Below are positions 12,863 to 59,489 of a stretch of DNA of 64,000 nucleotides, piece after piece (positions within the stretch are counted from its first letter, which is position 1; each line of letters starts with the position of its first letter). The position numbers were made by a program, and so were the translations under genes. Source of the DNA: Aradus depressus. Its lineage: Eukaryota > Arthropoda > Insecta > Hemiptera > Aradidae. Under the pieces are notes generated by a model. It searched no databases and was not told where the DNA came from. It worked only from the letters and a program-made list of their open reading frames with translations. Location of the stretch: positions 43,392,675-43,456,674 of the forward strand of contig OY759219.1 of assembly GCA_963662175.1 (NCBI GenBank), in the 5' to 3' direction.

Positions 12863-12941
12863 AACCCTGATTTTTCTAATGGAAAAGTGGAATATGGTGA
12901 ATTCGCCGTGTATTGTGCCAAGGAATCCAATATGAAGCTAG
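12863..12941 (+). CDS. OBP-like module 1, exon a (Cys1)
   Basis: The acceptor tttacttttag precedes an open 79-nt exon ending at CTAG|GTAATC. It reads NPDFSNGKVEYGEF then AVYCAKESNMKL, with the single cysteine taken as Cys1. It enters in phase 0 and leaves in phase 1; its last base completes an Ala codon with exon b. There is no start codon or hydrophobic leader, so the gene must begin further upstream, possibly beyond the satellite. Confidence 0.75.
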
Positions 12942-13089
12942 GTAATCATATCATAAATTATTTTAAATAGCACAAATATTGCGGCCATTCCATTCTTATG
13001 GAGGGGGCATTTTTTTACGTGTACAAAAAAATATGATTAAAAAACTATTTGTCTCACCTATAACATTGATATAGTGATATCAGAGTTAC

Positions 13090-13690
13090 CTACTTGCTCA
13101 ATGGTACTTCCGTCTCTCCCCTCAATGATACTTCCATCCCTCCCCTCAATGATACTTCGATCCCTCCCCTCAATAACACTTCCATCCCTCCCCTCAATAA
13201 TACTTCCATCCCTCCCCTCAATGATACTTCCATCCCTCCCCTCAATAACACTTCCATCCCTCCCCTCAATGATACTTCCATCCCTCCCCTCAATGATACT
13301 TTCATCCCTCCCCTCAATAACACTTTCATCCCTCCCCTCAATAACACTTCCATCCCTCCCCTCAATGATACTTCCATCTCTCCCCTCAATGATATTTCCA
13401 TCCCTCCCCTCAATAACACTTCCATCCCTCCCCTCAATAACACTTTCATCCCTCCCCTCAATAACACTTCCATCCCTCCCCTCAATAACACTTTCATCCC
13501 TCCCCTCAATAACACTTTCATCCCTCCCCTCAATAACACTTCCATCCCTCCCCTCAATGATACTTCCATCCCTCCCCTCAATGATACTTCCATCTCTCCC
13601 CTCAATGATACTTCCATCCCTCCCCTCAATAACACTTTCATCCCTCCCCTCAATAACACTTCCATCCCTCCCCTCATTGATACTTCCATC
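13090..13690. repeat. 24-bp minisatellite, about 25 copies
   Basis: The unit is roughly CTTCCATCCCTCCCCTCAAT plus RAYA, repeated about 25 times with GATA/AACA and TTC/TTT variants. The length is a multiple of three and the unit lacks stops, so both strands show ORFs of about 200 codons; these are artefacts. The strands are strongly pyrimidine/purine asymmetric. Confidence 0.97.
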
Positions 13691-13799
13691 CCTTTCTTTG
13701 AAAAGTAGAGCCAGGAAAATGTTTTATTACTACATGAAAATGATTTAAGTATTAGATTGTAGTATTATATACAATGCTACCACATATGTATTAGATGAT

Positions 13800-13842
13800 A
13801 GTGTTATAGTTAGTTATTATGCCTCATGCCCGGGCTTTAACT
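13800..13842 (-). mobile_element. SINE family 1, outer fragment (split by LTR element)
   Basis: The block 'catgcccgggctttaact' matches the end of the minus-strand SINE copies seen at 21.2, 50.9 and 59.9 kb. The rest of the same copy resumes at 16,359 with 'aactacgtggtcatatcg'. The AACT repeated on both sides is the target duplication of the LTR element inserted in between. Confidence 0.75.
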
Positions 13843-15627
13843 TGTAATAATGAAGGGTTGCGTCGCGTTTTTAATAAAAAAAAATGGTGATATTTATTTT
13901 GCAATGTAAACAACCCGTTGGCATGACGACTAACGTCTATGCAACGTTATCCAGGAGTTAGTTCGGATTCTTGCCGCTTGGGGTGTTCGGTTTCGGCGGG
14001 GCCTGTTCCAGAAAGGATCCGAAAGTGTATACCACAAGGTTTACATACTGTTTTTGAGAAATGTAGGAGTCAAAAATTAAAAAACAAAACTGCAGAAAAT
14101 TAAGGGAATATTTAATAAGAAAAAAGGAAAGGAAGAAAGGGGAGAAAACGTCAAAAATTTTAATATTTAAGAAATACAAAAGACGGAGAACAGAAGACAT
14201 CCAAATCTGCCGACCCATAAGGCAGTGCAAACAGCTAAAGAGGGAGTCGATGATCGCCCTTGACACAGTCTAAACCTGTTGTTTGACTTATCCCAGTTTT
14301 CTAGTTAATTGTCTCAATTAGACATATAAAGTGAGTAAACAGTGTAGTGAATGGTGAGGAGACAAAATGAGAGAAAGGGAGTTGCACTCCATATTTTTTT
14401 TGTAATTATTTTGCAGAATTAAGTTATAAGAATTTCCAATCGTGACGTCACAAGGTTGGATCTATTTTTTTGTAAAATATTATTCCAAGATGGCCATTTT
14501 TTTTATTTTTCAAGTTCGTAATTTTTTTATTAAAATCATTTTCTTTGTAAATATGTTTTAATTTTTTTTTGATTCCCCATATCTCTCTAAGCGAAATTCG
14601 GATCTCAAAACTTGCAGGTCCGACGAACTCACGACCATCTGGAAGATACCAATTCGGGACACATTATTAATTTTTCAGTACCTACTCGGGAGACATAGTT
14701 TATTACAAAAATTGGTATGACTAACGTAGAGACAACATTTGTTTTTAAGGGTTATTTATATAGGAGCTTCACTCAAAGTGTAATTTATAATTTTATTTTA
14801 ATGATTTATTTAATTTCAATTGCAACATTTATTTTTTCTTTATTATTATTCAAATAAAGTTCATTTTACAATAAACTTAGCATTATGGCACCCTTCTTGT
14901 GGGGATTTTAATTTACATAACATAACTTTAAAAAACCTTTCATTATGGCATATCCCTTGTGTGGAAGAAAAATTTCATTAATTTCTTGTTATTCAATAAA
15001 GTCAATCAAACCTATAAAAACCTTTCAATTTACTTACCTACTCTTTATCTAAACTGCGGAGATTTTCTCAAAACAGATTTGTCTTTACTAACTTAAAATA
15101 TTTGAAAGATGCCAGAGCGCCCATCTAATAGGACGATACTTAAATTTACTGATTTTAATATATAAATTGGATTTCTATAAACTAAAGGCGAAAGATTCGT
15201 TCAGCGAAAAGAGTTTTGAAAAACCAAATTGTTAAATCATAACTGACCTTGGATGGCATGAGAAACAAACTACTGAAAAATTAGCAACTCATATTTAGGA
15301 TGAATATATTAACAATAAAAAAAAATATATACTTAAAATTAAAATATAATATAAAATATAAACCTTATTGGCTATTGAAAGCGGTAGAGAGACAGGGTGC
15401 TGGATAGATAGACGATTGGATGCTCATGTGATGCTGGGTCCTGGATATCTCTGCGAAGGCCTGAGAGTAGAAGGATGTCTGCCGGTCTGGACTGGGGCTG
15501 GTCATCTGTACTCTGGAGACCGATTTCTGCCACTTCCAGAATACAACTGATCATGTAGGCTTCCACCTCTAGAATGGAACTCCAGACTTCAACTGCTCTC
15601 TTCGACTGGTGGACTCGACTGAACTCT

Positions 15628-15660
<33 letters not shown>

Positions 15661-16358
15661 CGGGTGCTCCTGACCCCTTAGGGGGGTCGGTCACATCACC
15701 CTATGTTCTCCCGGCTCCTTATGCCGAGTGATCTCGGGATCTTATCGGGGGTTCTGTTCTGCCTGTGTCCCGGACCCGGGGGCAGCCGCCGCACGCCTGT
15801 CGGTGGTCGGTGGGGCCCCCGGCACCGGGTTAGTAGGCTTTCTTGATTCTCCGCCAGGAGGAGACGAACCTCTGGACCTGAACTGAAGACTTCAACTCCT
15901 GACTTGAAACTGTAACTTGAGCTCTCCACCTCTCGAGGCTCTCGATGTTCTCTCCCTCCTTCTACCAGTTTCCCCTACTCTTCTCTGCTTCTCCCTTCTC
16001 CTCTGTCATCTCGGAATTTTGCGGTTCCTCCTATGAAGCCCCCAATTTGACCTCTGTCAACTTTAATTTGGACATTCCAGATAGTTTAATATGCCCCTAA
16101 CAGCGGGCTTGGAGCTATAATTCTTCATAGTTCCATTCTTCTTTGTTAAGCTGGGTTGTAAAAGGCTGTATAAATCCTCCTACAGGAACTTGATGGTGCC
16201 TTCTGTGCTATCCCTCGACACCTGAGCCTCTTGGTCACCCTTGCTACCAGTTCTCCAGCCTCCAAAATTATTGTTTATTTCTCAACTTCTATACATTATT
16301 TACTTTACAAACTTTAAATAAAAATTCATTTGGCCTTACACATCTTGATTACATTACA
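13843..16358. mobile_element. LTR (TG...CA) with nested insertions, copy 1
   Basis: Starts TGTAATAATG, ends GATTACATTACA, and is flanked by the 4-bp duplication AACT (13,839-13,842 and 16,359-16,362). The parts around 13,843-13,890 and 15,040-16,358 match the solo LTR at 48,266-49,473, including 'gcggagattttct' and 'gcgaaaagagttttgaaaaacc'. Compared with that copy there is about 1.1 kb extra (roughly 13,890-15,035) with no recognisable coding sequence, plus a short poly(T)-headed retroelement at 15.63 kb. A 4-bp duplication suits Gypsy- or Pao-type elements. No gag or pol is seen. Confidence 0.75.
15631..15869 (-). mobile_element. Short GC-rich retroelement with poly(A) tail
   Basis: A T run of about 30 bases is followed by GC-rich 'cgggtgctcctgacccc' and ends near 'ccggcaccggg', all unlike the AT-rich surroundings. 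The same start (poly-T then CGGGTGCTCC) and end (CCGGCGCCGGGG) recur in the element at 57,446. CTCTGGAC on both sides is a likely target duplication. It is probably the 3' end of an R1-like LINE, or a SINE derived from one. Confidence 0.6.
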
Positions 16359-16420
16359 AACTACGTGGTCATATCGTCTACTACCAGAGCCCTCTTTCGT
16401 CACTCTGGTGGACATGTGGT
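16359..16420 (-). mobile_element. SINE family 1, inner fragment next to exon b1
   Basis: Contains 'tggtcatatcgtctactaccagagc' in pieces and 'cactctggtggacatg', as in the complete SINE copies. It continues the copy begun at 13,800 and stops about 20 nt before exon b1, so the branch point of this intron may lie in SINE sequence. Confidence 0.7.
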
Positions 16421-16441
16421 TAATTTGTCTTATTTTTTCAG

Positions 16442-16497
16442 CGGATGCACAATATCTGATTGATAGCGGATTATTTCCTGAAAAAGAAAATGAGAAA
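16442..16497 (+). CDS. OBP-like module 1, exon b
   Basis: Acceptor tattttttcag, donor GAAA|GTACGT, 56 nt, phase 1>0. Read with exon a1 it begins ADAQYLIDSGLFPEKENEK, which looks like the helix region between Cys1 and Cys2 of OBPs. With it the Cys1-Cys2 spacing is 27 residues, the same as in module 3. Exon b is exactly 56 nt in modules 1, 2 and 3. Confidence 0.78.
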
Positions 16498-16799
16498 GTA
16501 CGTACCAAACTCTTCTAAGGTTATTTAATCCCCTTGGAATTATTTCGTGACGACCCTCCTTTCCCTATTGAAGTCATCCCTGTGTAGGAGATATTGTGTT
16601 AACAGGCTCATAGACAGACATTTTTTTGGAATCAGCTGGTTGGAAAACATTAAATTTTGTTGGTAACGCAACATCGAATTCCTGGCCGATTACATAACTT
16701 GCTCTATACTTCATATACCTGGAGAAGTATAACAATAATTCCTTATGCTTATAGTGTGATTATTACCATCACACATGTATAACATTATTGTTAATTTTA

Positions 16800-17440
16800 T
16801 TTTTAACATTTGCTTGGATATATTGGTAATGTCACATCTTCCGCATACGCCAAGATTCCGTTTTCTCCGGGTGTCTGAGTGTCCTCCTCTTCTCTCATCA
16901 ACTGCTTTATCACTCGTTCAAGGGGGAGGTTGAATAGAAAGGGGGAGAGGCAGTAACCTTGCTTCAGTCTAGGCCTGACATGGGAGGGCTCTGCATATCC
17001 CCCGATGTACTTTCGAGCCAAGTTAAACAATACCTTTAACCTTATTGAATGAATGCCCGGCAATTTGTGAGGGGTTTGGGCCTTTCCCTCGTCCTCCTCC
17101 TACCCCCACGTAATTCGTTATTCCATCGTTGAAGGTTAAGCCCATTCTCCTTGCTGCCGTCTCAAGAGCCAAGAAGGAACTTCTTAGGTCTCACTCTGAC
17201 CTCTCACTCTGACCGATCTATAGGATGTTGTTATCATCAGGATATGACAAGTTCTGCACGGATGTCAGTGTCTCTTATAACCTTCTCCAGGGCTTCATTA
17301 AACGATAGGCGGGCCAGCGCGACACGCCTGCCTCAGACCAGGGTGTTGACTGGACTCTGATGCGACTCCTGGATTAGCTTCCTGGGCACTTCCAGTTCCT
17401 CCGTGGCTGTATGCCAGTGCCTCCTCACCGTATTATCTCC
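16800..17440 (-). mobile_element. LINE reverse-transcriptase fragment, decayed
   Basis: The minus strand reads a 'LKQGYCLSPFLFNL' motif followed by 'ILAYAEDVTL', matching the RQG..LSP..FN and YADD motifs of non-LTR reverse transcriptases. The catalytic motif is YAED here. Frameshifts break the reading frame towards 17,440. It lies in the b1-c1 intron. Confidence 0.75.
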
Positions 17441-17599
17441 TAAAATTCACAGAGAGGTGGTGACTCTCTATCCTGAACTCGCGGGATTTATCCAGGGATA
17501 ATTAGGTTTTCCCCCTCCACCCTCCCCAGCCATGACGTCAAGCTTTCAACCTCAGCCTTTTTGTTTCTATTTACTTATTTGAAAGAGTAACCAGAGCAA

Positions 17600-18397
17600 A
17601 AATCGTAAATTCGAAGCCCTGCAAGGACACCTACTAATTTTCAGTAGAATCAGACGAAGGGGAGGGGGGATCAGGGGGGCTCAACTAAAAAATCCCCAAA
17701 ACTGCCGATGTGAAATTTTACATTTAAATTCAAAATCCCATAAGGATGACAACTATTAATTTTTTGGGAAATCGGTCGAAGGGAAGGGGGGCTCAAAGGC
17801 GGTGCTTGACATAAATAGCCTAATAACTGCCGATGTTGGGAATGTGTCGACTCTAAATTGAGCATGATGATTCAGAAACCACCATGTAAATCAAATATTG
17901 AATTTGGCCAAACGGTCGATTGGCTTTCAAGGGAGAGCGAAAACTTAACGGATTAATTCGTACTGAGGAAGTACATAGCAGGTGATTCAACGATGACATT
18001 TTTTTAATTTAGTTCAGTCCTTATTATTTACAAATTTTATTTAAGATTATGTATACATAATCATACATCGAACTCCTTGCAAGATAATTCTTTATGAACA
18101 ATAAGGTTATTAATTCATTCATATTTTTTACTAGCAGTCTTATAAGAAATCTACAACTAGTTTCTTGAAAATCATATCAGTAATGTGAAAAAGGTAGACC
18201 ATTAGATTCTCTAGAACAGCTAGAAATTAATAGGACTTCAAAAATGGGAATTGTTTAAAGGACCAGATACACTTCAAATTTTCTCCTTTGTTAATCCCTT
18301 TCCGATAACAAATATCCATGACAATATTAATCTAGGTTAAATAACTTCCTACATAGCTACATATTGTACATTTATTATATTGTTTTCTTGTAATGTT
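17600..18397. other. Dispersed repeat blocks, no gene seen
   Basis: Holds several copies of a motif around 'cctgcaaggacacctactaattttcag' (about 17,617, 17,740; similar at 23,640, 23,770 and 51,520), and the 'aaacggtcgattggcttt' repeat near 17,910. These are dispersed repeats of unknown class. From 18,000 on it is plain AT-rich sequence. Confidence 0.4.
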
Positions 18398-18408
18398 AGT
18401 TTTTAGAT

Positions 18409-20283: not shown

Positions 20284-20319
20284 TGTTTTCACCACTGTTA
20301 TATCCATAAACGTGAATTT
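20284..20319 (+). CDS. OBP-like module 1, exon c (Cys2-X3-Cys3)
   Basis: A 36-nt exon behind a strong pyrimidine tract (ttcttccgcattttcag) and before GTAAGT. It reads CFHHCYIHKREF, giving Cys2-X3-Cys3, the hallmark spacing of insect OBPs. Phase 0>0. It is too short for ORF finding and was located by the cysteine pattern. Confidence 0.78.
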
Positions 20320-21617: not shown

Positions 21618-21708
21618 TATAAAATGAACGATATCCAATGGGAAAATTTACCGTATACGTTACGTTATACTAATCCGAAGATGTTTATTTCAGAGCACTG
21701 TGCACACC
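21618..21708 (+). CDS. OBP-like module 1, exon d (Cys4)
   Basis: Acceptor tatttacag, donor CACC|GTAAGC, 91 nt, phase 0>1. It begins YKMNDIQWENLPY and ends PKMFISEHCAH, placing Cys4 three residues from the exon end, as in d2 and d3. Cys3-Cys4 spacing is 34 residues. Confidence 0.75.
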
Positions 21709-24109: not shown

Positions 24110-25495
24110 CACGGAGAATCCCTGGCCTCCTTCAGCGACCTCTCTCAGAGGCCGATGTCACCCCCTGGACCCTCCTTAGGAACCTGTGCAGGCAGGCTGT
24201 GACCTCGGTGGTCATGGTTCAGATATCACTCTGTTGTGGTGAGGCTGGTCTTCTGTTTGTTGGTCCCTGGTCTCCTTCAGCGACCTCTCTCAGAGGCCGA
24301 TGTCAACCAGTGGACCCTCCTTTGGAACCTGTGCAGGCAGGCTGTCATCTCGGTGATCATGGTTCAGATTTCTCTCTGTTGTGGTGAGGCTGGTCTTCTG
24401 TTTGTTGGTCCCTGGTCTCCTTCAGCGACCTCTCTCAGAGGCCGATGTCAACCAGTGGACCCTCCTTTGGAACCTGTGCAGGCAGGCTGTCATCTCGGTG
24501 ATCATGGTTCAGATATCTCTCTGTTGTGGTGAGGCTGGTCTTCTGTTTGTTGGTCCCTGGTCTCCTTCAGCGACCTCTCTCAGAGGCCGCTGTCCTGCCC
24601 GATGACACCCCCTGGACCCTCCTTTGGAACCTGTGCAGGCAGGCTGTGACCTCGGTGATCATGGTTCAGATAGCTCTCTGTTGTGGTGAGGTTGGTCTTC
24701 TGTTTGTTGGTCCCTGGCCTCCTTCAGCGACCTCTCTCAGAGGCCGCTGTCCTGCACGATGACACCCCCTGGACCCTCCTTTGGAACCTGTGCAGGCAGG
24801 CTGTCATCTCGGTGATCATGGTTCAGATAGCTCTCTGTTGTGGTGAGGTTGGTCTTCTGTTTGTTGGTCCCTGGCCTCCTTCAGCGACCTCTCTCAGAGG
24901 CCGCTGTCCTGCACGATGACACCCCCTGGACCCTCCTTAGGAACCTGTGCAGGCAGGCTGTCATCTCGGTGATCATGGTTCAGATAGCTCTCTGTTGTGG
25001 TGAGGTTGGTCTTCTGTTTGTTGGTCCCTGGCCTCCTTCAGCGACCTCTCTCAGAGGCCGCTGTCCTGCACGATAACACCCCCTGGACCCTCCTTTGGAA
25101 CCTGTGCAGGCAGGCTGTCATCTCGGTGATCATGGTTCAGATAGCTCTCTGTTGTGGTGAGGTTGGTCTTCTGTTTGTTGGTCCCTGGCCTCCTTCAGCG
25201 ACCTCTCTCAGAGGCCGCTGTCCTGCACGATGACACCCCCTGGACCCTCCTTTGGAACCTGTGCAGGCAGGCTGTCATCTCGGTGATCATGGTTCAGATA
25301 TCTCTCTGTTGTGGTGATGTTGGTCTTCTGTTTGTTGGTCCCTGGCCTCCTTCAGCGACCTCTCTCAGAGGCCGCTGTCCTGCACGATGACACCCCCTGG
25401 ACCCTCCTTTGGAACCTGTGCAGGCAGGCTGTCATCTCGGTGATCATGGTTCAGATGTCTCTCTGTTGTGGTGAGGTTGGTCTTCTGTTTGTTGG
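24110..25495. repeat. Tandem array, 145- and 157-bp units, about 9 copies
   Basis: Units start around 'gaccctcctttggaacctg' and contain 'tctgtttgttggtccctgg'. Start-to-start distances are 145 bp for the first units and 157 bp from 24,526 on; the longer form carries 12 extra bases (GCTGTCCTGCAC-type). The many 62-98-codon ORFs are this repeat read in shifting frames. Confidence 0.96.
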
Positions 25496-25640
25496 TGCCG
25501 AGGCATATCTTCCTCGTCTCTATTTCCAGTTTCCTGAAACACTCCTCCTGTCTTCATATCGTCTTCATATGCCCGACCTATGCCATTCTGTTAAACTTGC
25601 TATTCATTACAATGTTTTGTTGTTTTCTATGCTGTTTCAG

Positions 25641-25732
25641 TTGATACTAATGGGCTGTTCAAGGACGATTGCGAGAAAGGAGCCCACATCTTCCACTGTT
25701 TCGATCTTGCTTTACGATGGGCAAGTTTCCTC
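25641..25732 (+). CDS. OBP-like module 1, exon e (Cys5-X8-Cys6)
   Basis: Acceptor atgctgtttcag. Joined to d1 it reads LDTNGLFKDDCEKGAHIFHC then FDLALRWASFL; Cys4-X12-Cys5 and Cys5-X8-Cys6 are canonical. The end at CTC|GTAGAA is a weak phase-0 donor chosen because e2-e4 end at the same place. If it is not used, the frame stays open for 19 codons to a TAA at 25,790-25,792, making this a terminal exon. Confidence 0.78.
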
Positions 25733-26179
25733 GTAGAATTTAAAAAAGTGTTTTCCCAAGAAATAGACGAAAGTTTAAAAACTCTGAAATAAGAAAAGAG
25801 TTAAAATTAGAAAGTTCGGGGATCATTTAAAATACGGGGAAAATGCGGTTTCTCTGACGTCACTGAAGTCGTCAAGAAGCGTCTGTTCTAATTGGTATAT
25901 CGAAATTTCGAGGTGACTGTCAACATCGAGTCACAACTAGCACCCATGAAAGGCAGTACCCGCCGGCTTCTAGATTAATGTGCGGTGACGTTTTCAAATT
26001 TCTGTAATTTTAGAAAAATCCAATATTCCAGACGTTTCGATGTTTTAGCCAACAGAGGGCGTGGCTGTCAGTCACAATTTTGTCTTATTTTCTCATAATG
26101 ATGTAATAACATTTGTCAAAGTTCGAACTATTTCTATGCATTCCTTTTCAGTTTCAGCGTCTGAAAGAATTAAAGGGGC

Positions 26180-27079: not shown

Positions 27080-27182
27080 GGGAATACGGTTGAATTTATA
27101 AGAAACGTTCGGCACTTGGCAAGAGGGCTGGAGAAGCGAGCTATATCCAAATCTTCTAAAGACCACAAAATGATTGACGAAC
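27080..27182 (+). CDS. OBP-like module 2, exon a (Cys1 absent)
   Basis: Pyrimidine tract and acceptor tttttcttttag, then 103 nt ending GAAC|GTAGGC, phase 0>1. Begins GNTVEFIRNVRHLARGLEK and ends KDHKMIDE. It has no cysteine, so Cys1 is missing; the partner position Cys3 is also missing in exon c2. Size and phase match the other a exons. Confidence 0.62.
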
Positions 27183-27266: not shown

Positions 27267-27322
27267 AAGTGCTCATGTCGCTGGTCCACCATGACTTGCT
27301 ACCTATCTCAAGAATTGAAAAA
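27267..27322 (+). CDS. OBP-like module 2, exon b
   Basis: Acceptor ggtatttttcag, donor AAA|GTAAGT, 56 nt, phase 1>0. Joined to a2 it reads QVLMSLVHHDLLPISRIEK. Length and phases are identical to b1 and b3. The intron before it is only 84 nt. Confidence 0.7.
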
Positions 27323-28189: not shown

Positions 28190-28225
28190 TGCGCTCTCTC
28201 TTCCTTCCTGATACAGAGCGGCTTC
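28190..28225 (+). CDS. OBP-like module 2, exon c (Cys2 kept, Cys3 replaced by Ser)
   Basis: Acceptor gttctgttttcag, donor TTC|GTAAGT, 36 nt, phase 0>0, the same length as c1. Reads CALSSFLIQSGF; aligned with c1 CFHHCYIHKREF, Cys2 is present and the Cys3 position is Ser. This fits the missing Cys1 in a2, since Cys1 and Cys3 pair in OBPs. Confidence 0.68.
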
Positions 28226-28906: not shown

Positions 28907-29045
28907 ATGTCGTTTGGTGAAAATAAGATTGGGTTCAGATCTTACGCATACAGCCTGATGGCAAGGTACGGACTTACCGGGAGCGAGGAAAGCAAGAAAA
29001 ATACCTTCAACGACTTCGAAGAACATATATCGTCCTGTCATGAAA
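28907..29045 (+). CDS. OBP-like module 2, exon d (Cys4)
   Basis: Starts after gaaatgacctag and ends CATGAAA|GTGAGT, 139 nt, phase 0>1. Begins MSFGENKIGFRSYAYSLMAR and ends FEEHISSCHE, with Cys4 near the exon end as in d1 and d3. The last 34 or so bases and the donor are the founding copy of the 39-bp minisatellite that follows. Read-through of the donor meets TAG after three codons, so only this first donor keeps the frame. Confidence 0.72.
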
Positions 29046-29885
29046 GTGAGTAGTTTGAACAACATATATCGTCCTGTCATGAAAGTGAGTAGTTTGAACA
29101 ACATATATCGTCCTGTCATGAAAGTGAGTAGTTTGAACAACATATATCGTCCTGTCATGAAAGTGAGTAGTTTGAACAACATATATCGTCCTGTCATGAA
29201 AGTGAGTAGTTTGAACAACATATATCGTCCTGTCATGAAAGTGAGTAGTTTGAACAACATATATCGTCCTGTCATGAAAGTGAGTAGTTTGAACAACATA
29301 TATCGTCCTGTCATGAAAGTGAGTAGTTTGAACAACATATATCGTCCTGTCATGAAAGTGAGTAGTTTGAACAACATATATCGTCCTGTCATGAAAGTGA
29401 GTAGTTTGAACAACATATATCGTCCTGTCATGAAAGTGAGTAGTTTGAACAACATATATCGTCCTGTCATGAAAGTGAGTAGTTTGAACAACATATATCG
29501 TCCTGTCATGAAAGTGAGTAGTTTGAACAACATATATCGTCCTGTCATGAAAGTGAGTAGTTTGAACAACATATATCGTCCTGTCATGAAAGTGAGTAGT
29601 TTGAACAACATATATCGTCCTGTCATGAAAGTGAGTAGTTTGAACAACATATATCGTCCTGTCATGAAAGTGAGTAGTTTGAACAACATATATCGTCCTG
29701 TCATGAAAGTGAGTAGTTTGAACAAGATATATCGTCCTGTCATGAAAGTGAGTAGTTTGAACAACATATATCGTCCTGTCATGAAAGTGAGTAGTTTGAA
29801 CAACATATATCGTCCTGTCATGAAAGTGAGTAGTTTGAACAACATATATCGTCCTGTCATGAAAATGAGTAGTTTGAACAACTTT
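29024..29885. repeat. 39-bp minisatellite built from an exon end and its splice donor, about 22 copies
   Basis: Unit AACATATATCGTCCTGTCAT plus GAAAGTGAGTAGTTTGAAC. Each copy repeats the 3' end of exon d2 (codons for H-I-S-S-C-H-E) and its GTGAGT donor. Copies are nearly identical: one has AAGATATA, and the last has ATGAGT in place of GTGAGT before running into TTTTCTTTACAG. The long ORFs on both strands are artefacts of a stop-free 39-nt period. Confidence 0.97.
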
Positions 29886-36472: not shown

Positions 36473-36570
36473 AGACTAAAGAATGGATTAAAGAAAAAAC
36501 TCCAGATCATTGTGAATATGCATACCAACAAATGCACTGTGTCTATTTGAAAGTCGAAAAGTCCAATCAT
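36473..36570 (+). CDS. OBP-like module 2, exon e (Cys5-X8-Cys6)
   Basis: Acceptor ttctttcttttatag, donor CAT|GTGAGT, 98 nt, phase 1>0. With d2 it reads KTKEWIKEKTPDHCEYAYQQ then MHCVYLKVEKSNH; Cys5-X8-Cys6 is exact and Cys4-Cys5 is 15. The strong donor right after Cys6 plus 10 residues argues that the protein continues into the next module. Confidence 0.82.
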
Positions 36571-37276: not shown

Positions 37277-37364
37277 GTGACGAAGAGAACAAAGGAGGAC
37301 ATGGTGTGGTCAAGATGGCGTGCTCTGGCCCAAGTGTGTGCTCTACAGGAGGGGTCCCGCACAG
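37277..37364 (+). CDS. OBP-like module 3, exon a (Cys1)
   Basis: Acceptor caacttgtgcctcag, donor ACAG|GTTGGT, 88 nt, phase 0>1. Reads VTKRTKEDMVWSRWRALAQV then CALQEGSRT, with Cys1 eight residues before the exon end. 'ALAQVCA' closely resembles 'IAAQVCA' of exon a5. Confidence 0.82.
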
Positions 37365-38083: not shown

Positions 38084-38139
38084 ACATTGCAGAAGGACTT
38101 CTTTTGTACAAGTTTCTGCCAACAAACAGAAAAGAGCAA
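38084..38139 (+). CDS. OBP-like module 3, exon b
   Basis: Acceptor tattttttcttag, donor GCAA|GTATGT, 56 nt, phase 1>0. With a3 it reads DIAEGLLLYKFLPTNRKEQ. This gives Cys1-X27-Cys2. Confidence 0.78.
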
Positions 38140-39937: not shown

Positions 39938-39988
39938 TGTATCTATAAGTGCTTCATGGAAAGAGGAGGGTTTATGAATACTAAATTA
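39938..39988 (+). CDS. OBP-like module 3, exon c (Cys2-X3-Cys3)
   Basis: Acceptor tttctttgcatttccag, donor TTA|GTAAGG, 51 nt, phase 0>0. Reads CIYKCFMERGGFMNTKL, a classic OBP Cys2-X3-Cys3 helix. It is five codons longer than c1 and c2. Confidence 0.87.
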
Positions 39989-40941: not shown

Positions 40942-41074
40942 GGTGTTATTGATTTTGGCACGGCGGAGAATCCAAAGACCGGAACTACCCAAAGATTTGC
41001 GGAGGAGTTAGTTCTTATACACCCAGAGATTCAAGTGGGAGCCATAGAAGAGTTCAGCAATCAATGTGAACGTG
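40942..41074 (+). CDS. OBP-like module 3, exon d (Cys4)
   Basis: Acceptor attattttatag, donor CGTG|GTAAGA, 133 nt, phase 0>1. Begins GVIDFGTAENPKTGTTQRF and ends IEEFSNQCER; Cys4 is at the same place relative to the exon end as in d1 and d2. Cys3-Cys4 is 53 residues, longer than the usual spacing of about 40. Confidence 0.8.
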
Positions 41075-43165: not shown

Positions 43166-43254
43166 ATATGGAGGGTATAGTGAAACGAGACCTCTGTGCC
43201 TCCTCCTTCCTCTTCACACATTGCATCCTCACTAAGGCATCTTCTCATTTCCAG
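43166..43254 (+). CDS. OBP-like module 3, exon e (Cys5-X8-Cys6)
   Basis: Acceptor tttctttgtgcttcag, donor CAG|GTATCT, 89 nt, phase 1>0. With d3 it reads DMEGIVKRDLCASSFLFTHC then ILTKASSHFQ; Cys4-X12-Cys5 and Cys5-X8-Cys6 equal module 1. The exon ends 10 residues after Cys6, as e2 does. Confidence 0.82.
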
Positions 43255-43994: not shown

Positions 43995-44139
43995 ATGGAT
44001 CCGAATGCGGCAGCTCCACCTGCTTATCTTCCGTCGGTTTCAACTGAAAATCAGGTAGTTGAAACAATGAACCTCCTTGTACTGGAAAAGCTATCGAAGT
44101 TGGTACGTGTGTGTGCACTCACGTTAAATCTTGAACAAG
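43995..44139 (+). CDS. OBP-like module 4, exon a (Cys1)
   Basis: Acceptor gcttggaacag, donor CAAG|GTAAAC, 145 nt, phase 0>1. Begins MDPNAAAPPAYLPSVSTENQ, a Pro/Ala-rich linker, then LEKLSKLVRVCALTLNLEQ with Cys1. It is the longest a exon; the extra length is linker-like. Confidence 0.78.
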
Positions 44140-44589: not shown

Positions 44590-44651
44590 ATGTTCTCGAG
44601 AAGGCAATCTTAGAGCTTTCTGCTGGAGAAGATGAAGTAGATGAAAAAATG
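44590..44651 (+). CDS. OBP-like module 4, exon b
   Basis: Acceptor attctgtttttcag, donor ATG|GTAAGA, 62 nt, phase 1>0. With a4 it reads DVLEKAILELSAGEDEVDEK then M. Two codons longer than b1-b3. Confidence 0.75.
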
Positions 44652-44689
44652 GTAAGAAGGACCACGGCGTAAAGAAGATCGCGACTCCT

Positions 44690-45406: not shown

Positions 45407-45445
45407 GCTGAAGGTGTGGTTTGCTTTCTGCAGAGGGGAGGCTAT
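45407..45445 (+). CDS. OBP-like module 4, exon c (Cys3 kept, Cys2 lost)
   Basis: Acceptor aaacatttcag, donor TAT|GTATGT, 39 nt, phase 0>0. Reads AEGVVCFLQRGGY. 'CFLQRGGY' aligns with 'CFMERGGF' of c3, so this cysteine is Cys3; the Cys2 position is Glu. The Cys5 partner is also missing in e4. Confidence 0.66.
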
Positions 45446-47722
45446 GTATGTACATATATACTATACTATGCACATTTCCAGTTGCACCAAGGCGCTCCCT
45501 TGTTTGTTGTTTTTATAGCAACATGTCTTTCTTTGAAACGTACTAAAACAACTACAAACTATGATTTATAAAAATAAAGAAATGAAATGTCTGATGTGGC
45601 CATAACATGACTTTCTTATATGGTCCACACTTTTACAGTTCACTCCCCCCTCAGATTCTTTTCTCCATCATTTCAAACCTCACAATGAATTCTAATTTTT
45701 TTTTTTTTAATTTTTATTATTTGCAGTTTGGAAATTAAACTAAATTAAACCGCATTAAATTAAAAAAAAATCTCATATGACAATAACATGACTTTCTTAT
45801 ACCCACTACATTGTCAGGGACTGCTCAAAGACACTTTCATATGACTTTCTGAAAAAATGAATTTGAGAGGGGAGGAGGGTGGAGGGAGTGTTAAAGAAAT
45901 GTAATGGGTATAATAATGTCATGTTATAGTCATATTTAAAACAAACTTATTTTTTGAAATATTGTACACAATATTTCAAAAAAGTTGTTTGTTTTATTTA
46001 TTACAAATTCCACAATATGTCCGCGTTCCTCAACTTAGAAATAGTCATATTTGGCGGCTTCATTGTTTGAGGATGTCTCGAGGGCGTTAGTACATCCCTG
46101 TACCTGGGACACTCCTCCTGGATGTGGCTGACTGAAAGGCCAGGACTGGGGCTGCCACCCTGTTGATAAGTTGGCCATGGGTCGACTGAGTGTGGTCCAG
46201 ACGGAGGTGCACCAGGCACACCTCCAAGATGTGGATGACTGTGAGAGGCCAGGACTGGGGCTGCCACCCTGTTGATGAATTGGCCATGGGTCGACTGAGT
46301 GTGGTCCAGACGGAGGTGCACCAGGCACACTTCCCGGATGTGGCTGACTGTGAGAGGCCAGGACTGGGGCTGCCACCCTGTTGATGAGGTGGCCATGGGT
46401 CGACTGAGTGTGGTCCAGACGGAGGTGCACCAGGCACACTTCCCGGATGTGGCTGACTGTGAGAGGCCAGGACTGGGGCTGCCACCCTGTTGATGAGGTG
46501 GCCATGGGTCGACTGAGTGTGGTCCAGACGGAGGTGCACCAGGCACACTTCCCGGATGTGGCTGACTGTGAGAGGCCAGGACTGGGGCTGCCACCCTGTT
46601 GATGAGGTGGCCATGGGTCGACTGAGTGTGGTCCAGACGGAGGTGCACCAGGCACACTTCCCGGATGTGGCTGACTGTGAGAGGCCAGGACTGGGGCTGC
46701 CCCCCTGTTGATGAGGTGGCCATGGGTCGACTGAGTGTGGTCCAGACGGAGGTGCACCAGGCACACTTCCCGGATGTGGCTGACTGTGAGAGGCCAGGAC
46801 TGGGGCTGCCACCCTGTTGATGAGGTGGCCATGGGTCGACTGAGTGTGGTCCAGACGGAGGTACACCAGGCACACTTCCCGGATGTGGCTGACTGTGAGA
46901 GGCCAGGACTGGGGCTGCCCCCCTGTTGATGAGGTGGCCATGGGTCGACTGAGTGTGGTCCAGACGGAGGTGCACCAGGCACACTTCCCGGATGTGGCTG
47001 ACTGTGAGAGGCCAGGACTGGGGCTGCCACCCTGTTGATGAGGTGGCCATGGGTCGACTGAGTGTGGTCCAGACGGAGGTACACCAGGCACACTTCCCGG
47101 ATGTGGCTGACTGTGAGAGGCCAGGACTGGGGCTGCCCCCCTGTTGATGAGGTGGCCATGGGTCGACTGAGTGTGGTCCAGACGGAGGTGCACCAGGCAC
47201 ACTTCCCGGATGTGGCTGACTGTGAGAGGCCAGGACTGGGGCTGCCATCTTGTTGATGAGGTGGCCAAGGGTCGACTGAGTGTAGTTAGGACGGAGGTGC
47301 ATCAGGCACACCTGTCATCCAGCCTTTTCGAGCTACTCCATACGTTAATATTTTCTTTGATGGATATTGATTTATTTTCCACTGACATGTCGATCCCCAT
47401 CCTGGCCTAGGTTTGTTTTATTTTTTGATGGAGGCATTTCTTTAAATCGGATGTTAGCATCACTTCCATTGTCTCTCCGGGCAATGTTGCTCCTTCCTTC
47501 GCAACTAAATAGGCCTTAACCTTGACTTCAATTCCCATATGTTAGGGGATTCAACAAAAATTTAGGTTTTATGTGACCTGTGGCTGGAGAGCAAAGGCGG
47601 CGGGTATTGAATCACTGCATAACATGAATCTCCTACCAATATATATATTTAATGTTAAAATTAATTTTGTAATATACATTAGAGAAATGTTTTCTGCTAC
47701 TATTCTTACTTCTCATTCACAG
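45446..47722. other. Intron c4-d4 (2.3 kb)
   Basis: Holds a small palindrome at about 45,945-45,995 with an inverted jockey 3' end to about 46,040, then the 109-bp array. The remainder is AT-rich. Confidence 0.55.
46115..47312. repeat. 109-bp tandem array, about 11 copies
   Basis: Units contain GGTCGACTGAGTGTGGTCCA, GACGGAGGTGCACCAGGCAC and GGCCAGGACTGGGGCTGCC; the period is exactly 109 (46,190, 46,299, 46,408 and so on). In the right half two variants, GGTGCACC/GGTACACC and GCCACCC/GCCCCCC, alternate, giving a 218-bp dimer. Since 109 is one more than a multiple of three, minus-strand ORFs of 374-436 codons are open in all frames at once; they are artefacts. Confidence 0.97.
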
Positions 47723-47819
47723 ATAACTACAAAAGTGAAGGGTAATGGTCTATCAGCTACATTCAGATACGAATATTACCCATCGACTTTCACCGGGAAC
47801 AACCCCTACGCCAGACTCT
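47723..47819 (+). CDS. OBP-like module 4, exon d (Cys4 absent)
   Basis: Acceptor cttctcattcacag, donor CTCT|GTAAGT, 97 nt, phase 0>1. Begins ITTKVKGNGLSATFRYEYYP and ends GNNPYARL. It has no cysteine, so Cys4 is lost, along with Cys6 in e4. The donor region is duplicated downstream. Confidence 0.66.
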
Positions 47820-47932
47820 GTAAGTGTGTACAGTACATGTAAAAAGTAAGTCGGTGTATCACCTGCTACCTACTCTGTAAGTGTGTACAGTACATGTAAA
47901 AAGTAAGTCGGTGTATCACCTGCTACCTACTT
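47816..47932. repeat. 57-bp tandem duplication of the d4 splice donor
   Basis: CTCTGTAAGTGTGTACAGTA and the 37 bases after it occur twice in a row, so GTAAGT is present at 47,820 and again at 47,877. Reading through the first donor meets TAA within eight codons. Confidence 0.93.
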
Positions 47933-47943
47933 CTCTAACATGA

Positions 47944-50374: not shown

Positions 50375-50451
50375 TACAAGACAAATACAGTCGAATCAAG
50401 GACCAAGATGGTGTAAGAGGGGCTACTGCATTCCTCAAAGTCATGTTTGAT
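50375..50451 (+). CDS. OBP-like module 4, exon e (Cys5 and Cys6 absent)
   Basis: Acceptor tcttttgttttag, donor GAT|GTGAGT, 77 nt, phase 1>0. With d4 it reads LQDKYSRIKDQDGVRGATAF then LKVMFD. Aligned with e1, Gln replaces Cys5 and Phe replaces Cys6. Module 4 therefore keeps only Cys1 and Cys3. Phases and the strong donor fit the module pattern. Confidence 0.68.
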
Positions 50452-51172: not shown

Positions 51173-51890
51173 TTAGTATATATTTTTAATAAAAAAGTTA
51201 TAGGGTGTTTAACAAAATGGCTTTTTTCTCAAAAAAGTATTTTTGTCACATAGCCCTTTTATCACTCAACCCTTCAAATATATAATTGAATAAAAATACT
51301 ATTTGTTTTCTAACTGGAGGGCGGCCCTTGTCTCTCGCCCTTCATTGAACTTCGTCTAAGATCATATCTCACTATGCAGTAAGTAATGTTCCGTCTCGTT
51401 TTCTTCTTTCTCTGTCACTGTTGGGACTGTCCTGTGAGGACTCCTGTTATTAGGCTTTTTGTGATAAGTCCCCGCCCCAATCCCCCCCTCCCCTTTAGTC
51501 AATTTCATCCAAAATCAATAGTTACTAATGTAATCATAGGGATTTGAATTTAAATATGAAATTTTTTCTTGATTAATTCATTCTATCGGAAGTTATCGTC
51601 TTCACAGCTTTATTATTCTCCCATTTTGTTTCTAAGATTCAAAACGTACTTAGTACACAGACGTTTCAGGTAATTCTCCCATCAACAGTTTATCATTAAT
51701 ATATTTCTTTCTATTCCATTGGATTTTCTTTTTTAATATTTATAATGTTTTTTAATTTTTCACGGAGAATGTTTTTTTTTTTTTTTTTCATGAGAATGAA
51801 ATTAAGAATGAACACACGGCGTGGAATGGTCGAGTGTGTGCTCTATTTCAGTTGTTAGATAACCATAATGATTAATTGATTTAATTATCC
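51173..51890. other. AT-rich intron, dispersed repeat traces
   Basis: Contains a scrap of the 'ttcatccaaaatcaatagtta' type repeat near 51,510 and a T run at 51,773. No gene seen. Confidence 0.4.
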
Positions 51891-52863
51891 TTATTTTTAT
51901 GTAGGTATTTCAATAATTACCATCTTATAGCCCTTTTTGGTCTCATTTATTCTTTTTCTTTATTTTTTCTTCTTCATTTCCATACAACAACAATATTTCG
52001 TCCTACCAGGACATTTGCTAGTACATCACTGAAAAAATATTACATTCACAATATCGTTCACAATCTAAACTAATATATAAGTAATTGTAATTGTAGTAAA
52101 CTAATTATAAGTAATTGTAGTAAACTAATATATAAGTAATTATAATTGTAGTAAACTAATATATAAGTAATTGTAATTGTAGTAAACTAATATATAAGTA
52201 ATTGTAATTGTAGTAAACTAATATATAAGTAATTGTAATTGTAGTAAACTAATTATAAGTAATATGACACATAGTCAAAAAAACTATAAATTTAACATTG
52301 GATATATAAAACGTAAAATCAAAAAAATTAAAATAGAAATAGTTAGAAAATTGAATTAAAAGAATCGATAAACAATAACCCCTAGGGTTATCAAAAATAA
52401 AACTATAGAAAAAAATAATGCAACAAATTACCACCAATGAGTAGATAAAAATAGGTATGTTATACATATAATTAAAATAACTTCATAGAATTAAAGATTT
52501 TTAAAAAAGGAAAAAAATATAGTGAGATTAATTAAGTATTGCTTTTTCCAGATGCACAATATTAAAAATGACACGATATATTAGAATATATTATAAGGAA
52601 AAAAAATATGTTTAACATATATGTAAAGAGAAAAATAAAAATGTAAGTAAAAGATACAAAAGAATTTTACAATATGGCTAGCTGTTTAGATTGTGAACGT
52701 TATTGTGAATGTAATATTGTTTCAGTGATGTACTTGAAAATGTCCTGATAGGATGAAATATTGTTGTTGTATGGAAATGAAGAAGAAAAAATGAAGAAAA
52801 AGAATAAATGAGACCAAAAAGGGTTATAAGATGGTTATTATTGAAATACCTACATAAAAATAA
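51891..52863. mobile_element. Foldback element with 180-bp inverted arms
   Basis: 51,891-52,070 is inverted at 52,683-52,863: 'ttatgtaggtatttcaataa' at the start answers 'ttattgaaatacctacataa' at the end. The 610-bp loop holds a minisatellite. The right arm ends about 70 bp before exon a5. No transposase. Transcription of this intron would give a long hairpin. Confidence 0.85.
52070..52262. repeat. About 31-bp minisatellite, 6-7 copies
   Basis: Unit AAGTAATTGTAATTGTAGTA plus AACTAATATAT with short deletions. Sits at the left edge of the foldback loop. Confidence 0.92.
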
Positions 52864-52934
52864 AAACTTAAGAGGTCTCAAACAATCGTATATATGATAC
52901 GAAATTGAAGATTAATTATCCTTTTTATTTTCAG

Positions 52935-53010
52935 TTCTTGCCAAGTAATTACAATCCATCCGAGTTGATAGCAGCCCAAGTGTGCGCTCAGAAACAGAAC
53001 ATAGCTCATG
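52935..53010 (+). CDS. OBP-like module 5, exon a (Cys1)
   Basis: Acceptor tatccttttattttcag (read in parts), donor CATG|GTAATA, 76 nt, phase 0>1. Reads FLPSNYNPSELIAAQVCAQK then QNIAH. 'IAAQVCA' matches 'ALAQVCA' of a3. Confidence 0.74.
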
Positions 53011-54047
53011 GTAATAATAACAATATTATTAATACACACACATCCATCCATTCGGGCAGGTTTACCCGGCTTTGTACGGCAGTTACTGTACCTGTCACAG
53101 CACCTATAATAACATTCCTAATCAAGGTTTATAAAAGAGACCTATCGCTCCTCACTCGCATGGTTTGGTTTAAACTCTCAGAATAGACTCTAACCAAAAT
53201 ATTCAGATCATTCTTTAGACAATTTTAGGTGACACCTATCTCAGGTTTTGACTTGAAATTGATCTATTTGCTTTGTAGCTCTATTCTTTGTCAAATAGCG
53301 TTTTTTGAAAAAAAAAAAAAAAAAAATCAAAATTTTACTAAAAGTGACGTCATTTTGATGGAATTGGATTTAAAACAAAATTTAATACGGGGAATTTTAT
53401 CACATGTCACATTATCACACCCTGACTAAATACATTTCTAATCCCGTGAATTATTTCAAATAGAGTGAAAAAACGAAAAAAATAGTTTTTCTCAAAAAAT
53501 ATCTTTAATTTCCCCCAAATTTTAGAATATTTAAGAACATTTAAAATCCTATTTTTTTTTGTGAATTTCAACAATCAGAATATTTTTCAGGATTCTCTTC
53601 TGTTTTTAGCAACATGGGAAGGATCGGGAATGCATTTTGATGGATTTAAACGACATTTAATCACCTTTCAAACTCTGGCTAAATAAATTTGTTAACACTT
53701 GACTTATTTCTATTTGAAATGTATATACCTAATATGATCATTGACGATATTTTTTGAAATATTTGATTTATATATGCAGGTTATCACTAAATGTAAATTA
53801 ATAACAATATTAAATCAATTAAATTATACATTGTTTCATGAAAATCAGTTTAGTGTTATAGAACTTGCTTTATTCAGACTTTTCTGTAATTTCTATTATT
53901 ATGAAAATAATTTTTTTATTTTTCAAAACCAGCTGAAATCCAGGAATGTTTGTTTATCAGTCTGTCGTAACGTCTGTCTCGTGAACCTTATAAGTGGTCT
54001 GTCTGCTTAATATTTTTATTATCATTTAATTTTTTAGTTATATACTA

Positions 54048-55024
54048 GGGTGTATCGAAATTTTTTAAATTTGATGGCCCTACGAGAAATTGAAAGTATA
54101 TGACATGTAAACAATAACAGAATATCAAACAAACTATTGTCGATGCTTTAGGGGGTCCCACATTCGTCTCAAAAACACGATTTTCACGCTTTTTCGAGTA
54201 GTATATTAAGAACTGAAATTTTTTTAGATTTTATTGTTATTTTTCTGCCATATTCCAATTCCAAGTCGTGCCCCACTTAATTACAAGTAATATCATCATA
54301 AGAAAACATTATTTCAAGTATTTAGAAGTTAACCAAGGAATATTAATTATAGACAAAATGACATACGAGAAATAAAAATTATTCAAAATGCTACCATTGT
54401 GTCAGATTTTAATGCGGATAACTTTAGTATTTTAAAATTTGATGAAAATTAGTGTAAATTCTTTATATAAGTGAAATTTAATTTTAAAAAAGTGTGCAAT
54501 TTTGATCAATATAGGACAAAATTGAAAAAGGAGTAATGACTCCTAATAACTCTGTATAATTAGTAGCTTCAAAATTTAGTTTGGGTACTCGAAAAACTCT
54601 GTTGTCAGAGTCCGGTGAGTTTCTGCAGATCAAGATTATTTCCAAAGCATCAATCCGCATTAAAATCTGACACAATGGTAGCATTTTGAATAATTTTTAT
54701 TTCTCGTATGTCATTTTGTCTATAATTAATATTCCTTGGTTAACTTCTAAGTACTTGAAATGATGTTTTTTTATGATGATATTACTTGTAATTAAGTGGG
54801 GCACGACTTGGAATTGGAATTTGACAGAAAAATAACAATAAAATCTAAAAAAATTTCAGTTCTTAATATACTACTCGAAAAAGCGTGAAAATCGTGTTTT
54901 TGAGACGAATGTGGGACCCCCTAAAGCAGCGACAATAGTTTGTTTGATATTCTGTTATTGTTTAGATGTCAAATACTTTCAATTTTTCGTAGGGCCATCA
55001 AATTTAAAAAATGTCGATACACCC
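54048..55024. mobile_element. Foldback DNA element, 372-bp inverted arms, TA target site
   Basis: 54,048-54,419 is inverted at 54,653-55,024 with few mismatches; the ends are GGGTGTATCGA and its inverse. TA flanks both ends (54,046-54,047; 55,025-55,026), as for Tc1/mariner-type elements. The loop is 233 bp and codes for nothing. A non-autonomous element is the best reading. Confidence 0.88.
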
Positions 55025-55566
55025 TATTATATACATATGGGTATCTATCTATATTTTCGCGTAAATCAAGGAAACGTCTGAAAATATGTGTTTTAAATCT
55101 ATATTTCCAAGGCGGTTTTCGGCGTTTATCTCAATAACCGGACGAAGTGCAAAAAAGCATATTTCATATAAAATCTGTACATACTTCAATGTTGCCTACA
55201 ACTATAACTTGATTTTGATGAGGTCATATACACATGCGGCATCTTGTAAAATGTACTTAGTTCCCGGAGGAAAGTGGTCTCAATACTTGGCTCATTTCGG
55301 CCAAAATCTAATGAGAACTAATCTATAGGACGTGTGATTCCTTCATTCCAAATGTCATGTTCTCGGCTACAATGTTTTTCACGGCAGAGCACGCACAAGT
55401 TTCCAATCACACGCGCAGTCAGACATCATCGCGAAAATAGTGAAAACATATTCAGGGGATTTTGAAACGTGAAAATACATTGAAACGTCGATCTCGGAGT
55501 TTCGCACGATTACAATATTTCCTTATACTACAGGTATTAGAGAGTAAAAACTAAGGTGTTAGAACA

Positions 55567-55606
55567 CACACACACACATACACACACACACACACATACA
55601 CACACA

Positions 55607-55661
<55 letters not shown>
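55567..55661. repeat. (CA)n microsatellite with TA interruptions
   Basis: About 95 bp of CA repeats with four to five ATA interruptions, ending in an unbroken run of about 20 CA. Confidence 0.98.
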
Positions 55662-55666
<5 letters not shown>

Positions 55667-56811
55667 CATAGGATTTTACATTGATTTCGACGTATTAAAA
55701 TTTGGTGGTATAATAACATATAAGTATAATATTTTGAAGGAAATACGTTTATTTTTTATTTTTCACTCTTTTCGAAATGAATCATGTGATTTTAAAATCA
55801 TTAACCAGGGTTTTGACCATTTAAAAGTTTTTAAAATTTAAAATGGAATCGCTTTTAGTAAAATTATTATTTTTTTCGGTTACTGCTTTCTGACTAAAAA
55901 AATTTAAAACTGAGCTCCATGCAAATAAATCAATTTCAGGTCAAATGCTGAGACAGGTGTTCCCTAAAATTGCGTAATGAATGATATATTTCGGTTACAA
56001 GCTTGAAATTGAAATTTTTAACAGGCGTCGTCCTGTTATATCAGCTGTCAAAACATCTTCGGAACTGGAAACCGTGACTTGATAGCTCACTAACTTTCAT
56101 GCCATTTTGGGACTTATACAAAATTTATGATAACTTCAGCAAATTTATTAGTTTACAAAAAAGAAGATGCAATTCCATTCCGGATAAGTGAGGCTGTTTC
56201 CCCCGCCCAGATGATAGCCTACATTTCAGGTTCTTAGATGCTTTGATACTTCAGTATCATAAGTAATGTTATAAAGAAACAAGTAGGTCTCCATACTTAA
56301 TTGTATAAACCAGTGACAATAACGAGCATTACTTCGACAACCCACGAGAAGAGGAGTATTCATTAAAACATTGTTCCTGGATGCATCTTTCTGCCCGTGG
56401 ACGTCGGGCCGCCAGGATCAGGTCCTCGATCGGTTGAGCAATACCAGAGTTGTCTTGAAACACTTCTGATTCAATGATATAGATGGAACTAGTTTGCATA
56501 TAGGTCAGTTTTTCTCAGCCTAGCTGAAATGAATGTGTTCAAATGGAGTTCGCAATACAATATACTGTTCATAATATAGTCTTATAAGGAGAAGCGTGCA
56601 CTCTAGTCTAAGTGGGAGTTTTCTCTGGACCATCCAAAGATAGTTTCATATTCAATTATATTATGAAACACATGGACAGAACAAATAAAGGACACAAATA
56701 AAACGGAATTCATAAATCTTGAAGAAAACATGCTAATTATATCAATTTCCTCTCACCTCAAAATTGTGTTATTTTTTTACATTTCAAATAATAATAATTT
56801 AGTTATTTTTA

Positions 56812-57085
56812 CTCATGCCCGGGCCTTAACTACAAGGTCATATCGCCTACTACCAGAGCGCCCTTTGTTTGACATAGAGCCCAACTCTACTGTAGGAATA
56901 CTAAATGTTGCCTACGTAGATTTATTCTCCTATGATAGGGATCTTTAACAAGTACCTGAAATCGTACAGGCTCCATTGCTTAACGTCCCATCTGATGGAC
57001 GTCGTGGAGGGTTTTTCAACCTCCCAGATAAAAAACCTAAGGGTCTCGGCCGGTTTTCGAACCACTGAACTACGGGCGCCCTAAT
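56812..57085 (-). mobile_element. SINE family 1, degraded
   Basis: Runs from 'catgcccgggccttaactac' to 'tgaactacgggcgccc'; part of the tRNA-like head is lost. Confidence 0.83.
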
Positions 57086-57334
57086 TATAACTTATGTTAG
57101 TATTTCTTCTCTTATATATGAAAATGTTTTGTCTTTTTGTGAAAAGGCTAGTATTTATAGGATAGAGTAAAAAGCTGACCCTCCTGTCGAGACTTTTAGT
57201 GAAGCTGCACAACCTGTCCGCTTTTATGAAATCTCTCATTTAGAAATCACCGCTATCACTATACCAAAGCAACCAGAAAAAATTGAGAATTACCGAAATA
57301 TACTTTTTATAATGATTAATAGAGTCATTAGTAT

Positions 57335-57925
57335 CTTTTCAATGTAGAAGAAATTCGAGATTCTGTCGTGTAAATGAAAATTCAAAATTTGGCCAACGTT
57401 TCGGAAACTATTTATTTCCTTCTTCAAGGCCTTATAATAATGACTTTTTTTTTTTTCACGGGTGCTCCGGCAAATCACCCGGTCCGATATCGTCGGGGGA
57501 AGAGGTACATATATTATATTTGGTTTTATTTACAAATAACATTTTTTTTTTTTTTTTGCTATGGATGGATGTCTGGGGGCGACTGCCTCTGGTCCCAGAC
57601 CCCCTTGTATTGCGGCTGCCTGGTGGCGCCGAGAGAGCTCAAGATCAGTGACCAGCTTCTACATCGCGGTCGCCGGGGGTAGAACTCTGGCCTGGCCCGT
57701 CAATCGCCCCCGGCGCCGGGGCATTATTATAATAATGACTTGAGTGGATGTGTGTGGTGAAAGTGTTGAGAGTTTGCGTGAACACACTTTTTTCACCACA
57801 AACATCCACTCAAGTCATTATAACGCCCTGAAGAAGGAAATGAATAGTTTCCGAAACGTTGGTCAAATTTTGATTTTTCATTCACACGACAGCACCTCGA
57901 ATTCCTTCTGCATTCTTTTTATAAT
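57335..57925. mobile_element. Palindromic element interrupted by a retroelement
   Basis: The arm containing 'gccaacgtttcggaaactat' at about 57,392 is inverted at about 57,850 ('atagtttccgaaacgttgg'), and 'gagtggatgtgtgtggtgaa' is inverted around a centre near 57,780. The left arm is split by the insertion at 57,446-57,726. Confidence 0.8.
57446..57726 (-). mobile_element. Short GC-rich retroelement with 14-bp target duplication
   Basis: T run then CACGGGTGCTCCGGC; GC-rich end CCCCCGGCGCCGGGGC. Target duplication TTATAATAATGACT at 57,432-57,445 and 57,727-57,740. A second T run (57,542-57,558) lies inside. Related to the element at 15.63 kb. Confidence 0.85.
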
Positions 57926-57953
57926 TCGAAAACTATAATTTTATTAATATTAG

Positions 57954-58024
57954 CTGAAGATGTGTCTGTGGGGAAGACGTTAATGCCAGTCCTGCCAGGA
58001 ATAAAAATTGAACTTACTAGTCCG
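57954..58024 (+). CDS. OBP-like module 5, exon b
   Basis: Acceptor attttattaatattag, donor CCG|GTAAGT, 71 nt, phase 1>0. With a5 it reads AEDVSVGKTLMPVLPGIKIE then LTSP. Phases match the other b exons; five codons longer than b1-b3. Right edge only 30 bp from the palindrome. Confidence 0.62.
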
Positions 58025-59483: not shown

Positions 59484-59489
59484 AAAAAG

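Follow-up and report, generated by a model that had tools for sequence, protein, structure and literature searches.

The usual view of an insect odorant-binding protein (OBP) is that of one soluble pocket. Some join two domains, as does the long form of the D7 salivary proteins. According to the available text of PMC3428353, joined OBP domains are also found in the Drosophila dimer OBPs Obp83cd and Obp83ef and in the mosquito atypical OBPs, and the double-domain OBPs of Nasonia vitripennis carry tandem domains that almost always have the same gene structure in each; one of these proteins has extensive cysteine loss. DponOBP4 of the beetle Dendroctonus ponderosae is a four-domain Minus-C OBP of 500 residues, with transcripts in that species and in two other curculionids; Minus-C OBPs are defined by the loss of C2 and C5 among the six OBP cysteines, C1 to C6 (PMC6720082, available text). 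The subject here is a series of exons in the hemipteran Aradus depressus, at positions 12,863–58,024 of a 64,000-nucleotide stretch (the window) that covers positions 43,392,675–43,456,674 of contig OY759219.1 in GenBank assembly GCA_963662175.1. The series probably belongs to a single long insect gene whose secreted product would consist of OBP domains in a row.

A sequence-only reading of the window had set the locus against OBPs of one or two domains. These are indeed the usual forms, but DponOBP4 is a published OBP of four domains with transcript support. Like DponOBP4, the locus appears to have more than two consecutive OBP domains in one gene, with cysteine losses and a proposed duplication inside the gene. 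In DponOBP4, however, every domain has a single exon and all four belong to the Minus-C class (PMC6720082, available text), while here a module takes five exons, and six cysteines are present in modules 1 and 3; this gene is not a tetramer of the DponOBP4 type. As in the Nasonia double-domain OBPs, gene structure is repeated from domain to domain and cysteines have been lost, but those proteins have two domains, whereas this locus has three clear ones and further exons of the series beyond them. The Drosophila dimer OBPs, mosquito atypical OBPs and D7 proteins likewise join OBP domains, but two of them, and the three PF01395 stretches in the joined modules 1–3 place this locus, if it encodes one protein, outside the double-domain or dimer class. 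Aphid and whitefly OBPs share the several small exons and long introns, but have one domain with its own start and end (available text of PMC7380018 and PMC7380034). In searches of the openly licensed literature, no OBP with more than four domains was found among the best-listed matches. New here are an architecture of five exons to a domain and the combination of domains that have six cysteines with domains that have fewer; the domain number may be new as well.

The window was scanned for exons bounded by AG and GT with the phases 0>1 (a), 1>0 (b), 0>0 (c), 0>1 (d) and 1>0 (e). On the forward strand the series a-b-c-d-e was found four times in order, followed by a-b. The sequence-only reading had listed 22 GT-AG exons, and at its coordinates all 22 have AG before and GT after; their phases and the sizes of the b and c exons were also reproduced. 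The exons are listed below with their splice-site scores, or with the similarity of each to its counterpart exons, given as the number of sequence windows of the region that score as well.

12863–12941, + strand: exon a1, with C1; acceptor 5.7, donor 2.1
16442–16497, + strand: exon b1, 56 nucleotides (nt); from the exon scan
20284–20319, + strand: exon c1, 36 nt, opens with C2-X3-C3; from the exon scan
21618–21708, + strand: exon d1, with C4; from the exon scan
25641–25720, + strand: exon e1, with C5-X8-C6; GC donor TGG/gcaagt (end previously placed at 25732)
27080–27182, + strand: exon a2, no cysteine, serine at the C1 place; acceptor 10.2, donor -0.3
27267–27322, + strand: exon b2, 56 nt; 5 of 33,724 windows
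28190–28225, + strand: exon c2, 36 nt, C2 kept, serine at the C3 place; 11 of 48,174 windows, itself included
28907–29045, + strand: exon d2, with C4; its end matches, 37 of 53,680 windows; weak acceptor, 0.8
36473–36570, + strand: exon e2, with C5-X8-C6; from the exon scan
37277–37364, + strand: exon a3, with C1; from the exon scan
38084–38139, + strand: exon b3, 56 nt; from the exon scan
39938–39988, + strand: exon c3, 51 nt, opens with C2-X3-C3; from the exon scan
40942–41074, + strand: exon d3, with C4; from the exon scan
43166–43254, + strand: exon e3, with C5-X8-C6; from the exon scan
43995–44139, + strand: exon a4, with C1; alternative start at 44055, both acceptors weak (1.0 and 0.4); 9 of 48,174 windows, itself included
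44590–44651, + strand: exon b4, 62 nt; splice sites good, similarity weak (601 of 32,116 windows)
45407–45445, + strand: exon c4, 39 nt, C3 kept, C2 lost; 2 of 48,174 windows, itself included
47723–47819, + strand: candidate exon d4, without similarity support
50375–50451, + strand: candidate exon e4, no cysteines, without similarity support
52935–53010, + strand: exon a5, with C1; 3 of 48,174 windows, itself included
57954–58024, + strand: exon b5, 71 nt; donor 6.5; placed by the phase and size scan, not by similarity

The five small exons of a module extend over some 6 to 13 kb. The length of each of the four full modules is divisible by three, as is that of a5 plus b5. Every e donor and every a acceptor is in phase 0; each cassette begins and ends in phase 0, so copies stay in frame on duplication. 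The cysteines have fixed places in the exons of modules 1 and 3: C1 in exon a, C2-X3-C3 at the start of exon c, C4 directly before the end of exon d, and C5-X8-C6 in exon e. The full spacing is C-X27-C-X3-C-X34-C-X12-C-X8-C in module 1 and C-X27-C-X3-C-X53-C-X12-C-X8-C in module 3. The previous reading had called the spacing of these two modules canonical OBP; the C3-C4 stretch of module 3 is long.

Chance was assessed in region 12,501–60,000 with 1000 first-order Markov resamplings in 2-kb blocks, using criteria that were fixed after the exons had been seen, though they match the usual OBP spacings. Two c exons opening with CxxxC were observed, against a mean of 0.014 and a maximum of 1 in the resamplings. 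For e exons with C-X8-C the count was three (taking e1 to its GT donor, 25747); the resamplings averaged 0.104 and never exceeded 2. Neither the 1000 resamplings nor the opposite strand produced a single ordered c-d-e chain with cysteines spaced as in OBPs; the 12 combinations observed are inflated by 8 d-like exons that belong to a tandem array near 24136–25496. The full a-to-e chain occurred in none of 60 resamplings. The d-like exons at 24136–25470 were rejected as tandem-array copies.

The family assignment comes from the Pfam profile PF01395 (PBP_GOBP), which has a curated cut-off of 22 bits. Modules 1 (36.1 bits, E 7.5e-9) and 3 (29.6 bits, E 7.7e-7) score above the cut-off and module 2 (15.6 bits, E 0.018) below it. 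Joined, modules 1–3 match with E 2.2e-16 in three stretches. Ten shuffled versions of modules 1 and 3, in which the cysteines kept their places, gave no match to PBP_GOBP; one of the ten had weak matches to three unrelated families. A profile of modules 1–3 gave five matches in the PDB at E up to 10, all five named as odorant-binding proteins (E 0.027 to 0.59), and a profile of modules 1–4 gave two, both OBPs (E 0.078 and 0.45). The best matches of the modules 1–3 profile were 4Z39 and 4Z45, both aphid proteins. Modules 3 and 1 searched as single sequences had no match in the PDB, and searches of NCBIfam and Rfam were also empty. These results support the identification of modules 1–3 as OBP domains from repeated five-exon cassettes. 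Identity of the modules to the first row of two alignments is 18–25%, which suggests old duplications.

Six cysteines with C2-X3-C3 and C5-X8-C6 are present in modules 1 and 3 but not in 2 and 4. Module 2 has four of the six, with serine at the places of C1 and C3. These two are disulphide partners in OBPs, so the pattern fits a fold that dropped one bridge. Module 4 has two cysteines, taken as C1 and C3; C2 is lost, and C4, C5 and C6 would be too if d4 and e4 are right. Neither follows the Minus-C pattern of losing C2 and C5 – module 2 is without C1 and C3, and module 4 without C2.

Several exon ends required closer attention. The previous reading had ended e1 at 25732 (CTC/gtagaa), but that donor scores -5.1 and was dropped; the next GT, at 25747, scores -1.2. 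The GC donor at 25720, of phase 0 and with a score of 5.0, is most likely the end of e1. It lies 7 residues past C6, while e2 and e3 end 10 past. In 47.5 kb there are six GC sites, this one among them, with at least that score. Splice scores in module 2 are modest, with 0.7 for the c2 donor as well as the low d2 acceptor. A 39-bp tandem array of 22 copies (29018–29882, 99% matches) starts inside exon d2 and repeats the last 28 nt of the exon plus the donor; its first unit is the 3' end of d2 with the donor, and the 13-nt donor motif is present in 21 exact copies. The later donors of the array were rejected as ends of d2, as every one adds an in-frame stop.

Candidates d4 and e4, reported previously as exons, find no support in similarity: 50,844 of 56,671 windows score as well as the end of d4, and 18,625 of 37,259 as well as e4, so that neither stands out from ordinary windows. 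One other candidate for e4, with two cysteines 7–9 residues apart, was found and set aside for a donor score of only -3.9. A 57-bp tandem duplication (47815–47931) spans the donor of candidate d4, the second d exon here with a tandemly repeated donor. To the right of b5, three exons of c phase and size were found, but no c5 with CxxxC. The count is three good domains, part of a fourth and perhaps the start of a fifth. Of the five or more OBP domains claimed originally, modules 1–3 stand, while modules 4 and 5 have no PBP_GOBP match and d4 and e4 no support.

That the modules are joined in one protein, encoded by one gene and not by a cluster of genes, is favoured by the sequence but not proved, and to that extent the original proposal of a single protein stands. 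The modules could instead be a head-to-tail row of OBP genes with one domain each. Every such gene would have a signal-peptide exon and an end of its own, and the scan would have recognised just its five middle exons. Tandem OBP genes do occur – three in Myzus (PMC7380018) and three on one scaffold in Bemisia (PMC7380034) – and among nine Myzus OBP genes five consist of seven exons (PMC7380018), which in our reading would match a to e with a signal-peptide exon before them and a tail exon after, as far as the available text of both papers goes. The gaps between e and a exons argue otherwise. Those of e1-a2, e2-a3 and e3-a4 span 706–1359 bp, and two of them, e2-a3 (706 bp) and e3-a4 (740 bp), offer, at about 0.7 kb, scant space for one gene to end and for the promoter and first exon of another. 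Under a strict test all four gaps lacked a signal-peptide-like exon of phase 0, and e1-a2 held a single phase-1 candidate. A relaxed test found no exon from ATG to a phase-0 GT with a hydrophobic core in e1-a2, e2-a3 or e3-a4. Read upstream in frame, by eye, a1 and a2 meet a stop at once and a3 and a5 have no methionine before a stop; only a4 has one, six codons up, without a long hydrophobic run. Separate genes are improbable.

Other observations weigh against a single long gene. In the relaxed test, gap e4-a5 holds two weak phase-0 signal-like candidates, two donors on one ATG; this is no excess, with 37 such exons in 38,116 bp of introns giving 5.1 expected in the four gaps and 2 seen. The signal-peptide tests used GT donors only, without a positive control in the window and without a predictor. 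Each e exon could read through to a stop within 3–24 codons, as would suit separate genes, and phase 0 at the cassette ends is equally expected of separate genes from one ancestor. No signal-like exon was found before a1, at 12,560–12,862, and the 5' end of the gene was not found in the window. The e1 junction requires a rare GC donor, and the chain could break at module 4, which has no recognisable d and e exons. PBP_GOBP does not match module 5 or module 4, the latter even with the later start, and none of the PDB profile matches is significant singly. No relative was found at E up to 10, either with the joined 590 residues among 6592 candidate proteins of about 325–1032 residues, a range in which a longer annotated relative could be missed, or with the four-module alignment among 626 candidate proteins. 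Another alternative is a multi-domain gene that has partly or wholly decayed, with modules 4 and 5 as relics and a shorter protein or none. The many tandem arrays in the introns, the multiplied d2 donor, the lack of a GT donor of quality at e1, the unsupported d4 and e4 and the unmatched module 4 are consistent with decay. Modules 1–3, however, have 15 exons that are open and flanked by splice sites, with the GC donor for e1, and the cysteine loss in module 2 hits a disulphide pair. Decay is unlikely, if slightly less so than separate genes; it overlaps with the single-gene explanation, and the likelihoods given here do not add up to certainty. Finally, any long sequence will yield short exons when splice scores are flexible, and d4, e4 and b4 are of that kind, but that the whole series is a pattern picked by chance from 45 kb is scarcely credible given the absence of the c-d-e chain from the resamplings and the Pfam match of the joined modules.

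The locus lies among repeats. A satellite with a period of about 110 bp occupies 1–12329, with 99 copies in its main stretch (1263–12329), and ends about 0.5 kb before a1. Uniform minisatellites lie in or next to the gene at 13097–13693, 24456–25496, 46116–47311 and 58706–59484, with periods of 24, 157, 109 and 86 bp and 93–98% matches; the two at 13.1 and 46.1 kb can be read without stops in several frames. A reverse transcriptase remnant lies on the - strand within the b1–c1 intron (16806–17099, E 0.00025, below the Pfam cut-off). At 61876–63860 there are pieces similar to a long interspersed nuclear element (LINE) retrotransposon, an endonuclease open reading frame and a reverse transcriptase open reading frame in different frames. 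A protein search with this element gave 204 matches; among the 120 listed, those with names are from spiders, flies, butterflies, beetles, a damselfly, hemipterans and other groups.

In the single-gene explanation, each domain would be encoded by one symmetrical five-exon cassette, and duplication of the cassette in frame would have placed several domains in one protein. Modules 1 and 3 have kept all six cysteines, while 2 lost one pair and 4 degenerated. The product may be a chain of small alpha-helical pockets, able to hold several hydrophobic ligands per molecule. The sequence itself shows the exons and their phases, the family match of modules 1–3, the cysteine pattern and three gaps free of a phase-0 signal-like exon; one transcript, secretion, ligand binding and the role of the protein are what we infer. 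By analogy, it is more likely to be a carrier or scavenger in a body fluid, outside the antenna, than a sensillum protein. The fuller proposal – at least five OBP domains in one secreted chain that exceeds every OBP in the papers found, an in-frame cassette duplication independent of that in the beetle protein with its four domains, and a carrier with several pockets that does not serve olfaction – is tentative and rather less than probable.

If true, many joined pockets of mixed cysteine classes would mean that the OBP fold can be chained like beads, and a cassette that begins and ends in phase 0 keeps any number of copies in frame. With such a protein one could test for cooperative binding between joined OBP domains, or for a role as ligand sponges in a body fluid, like that of the D7 proteins of mosquito saliva (PMC2994686, available text).

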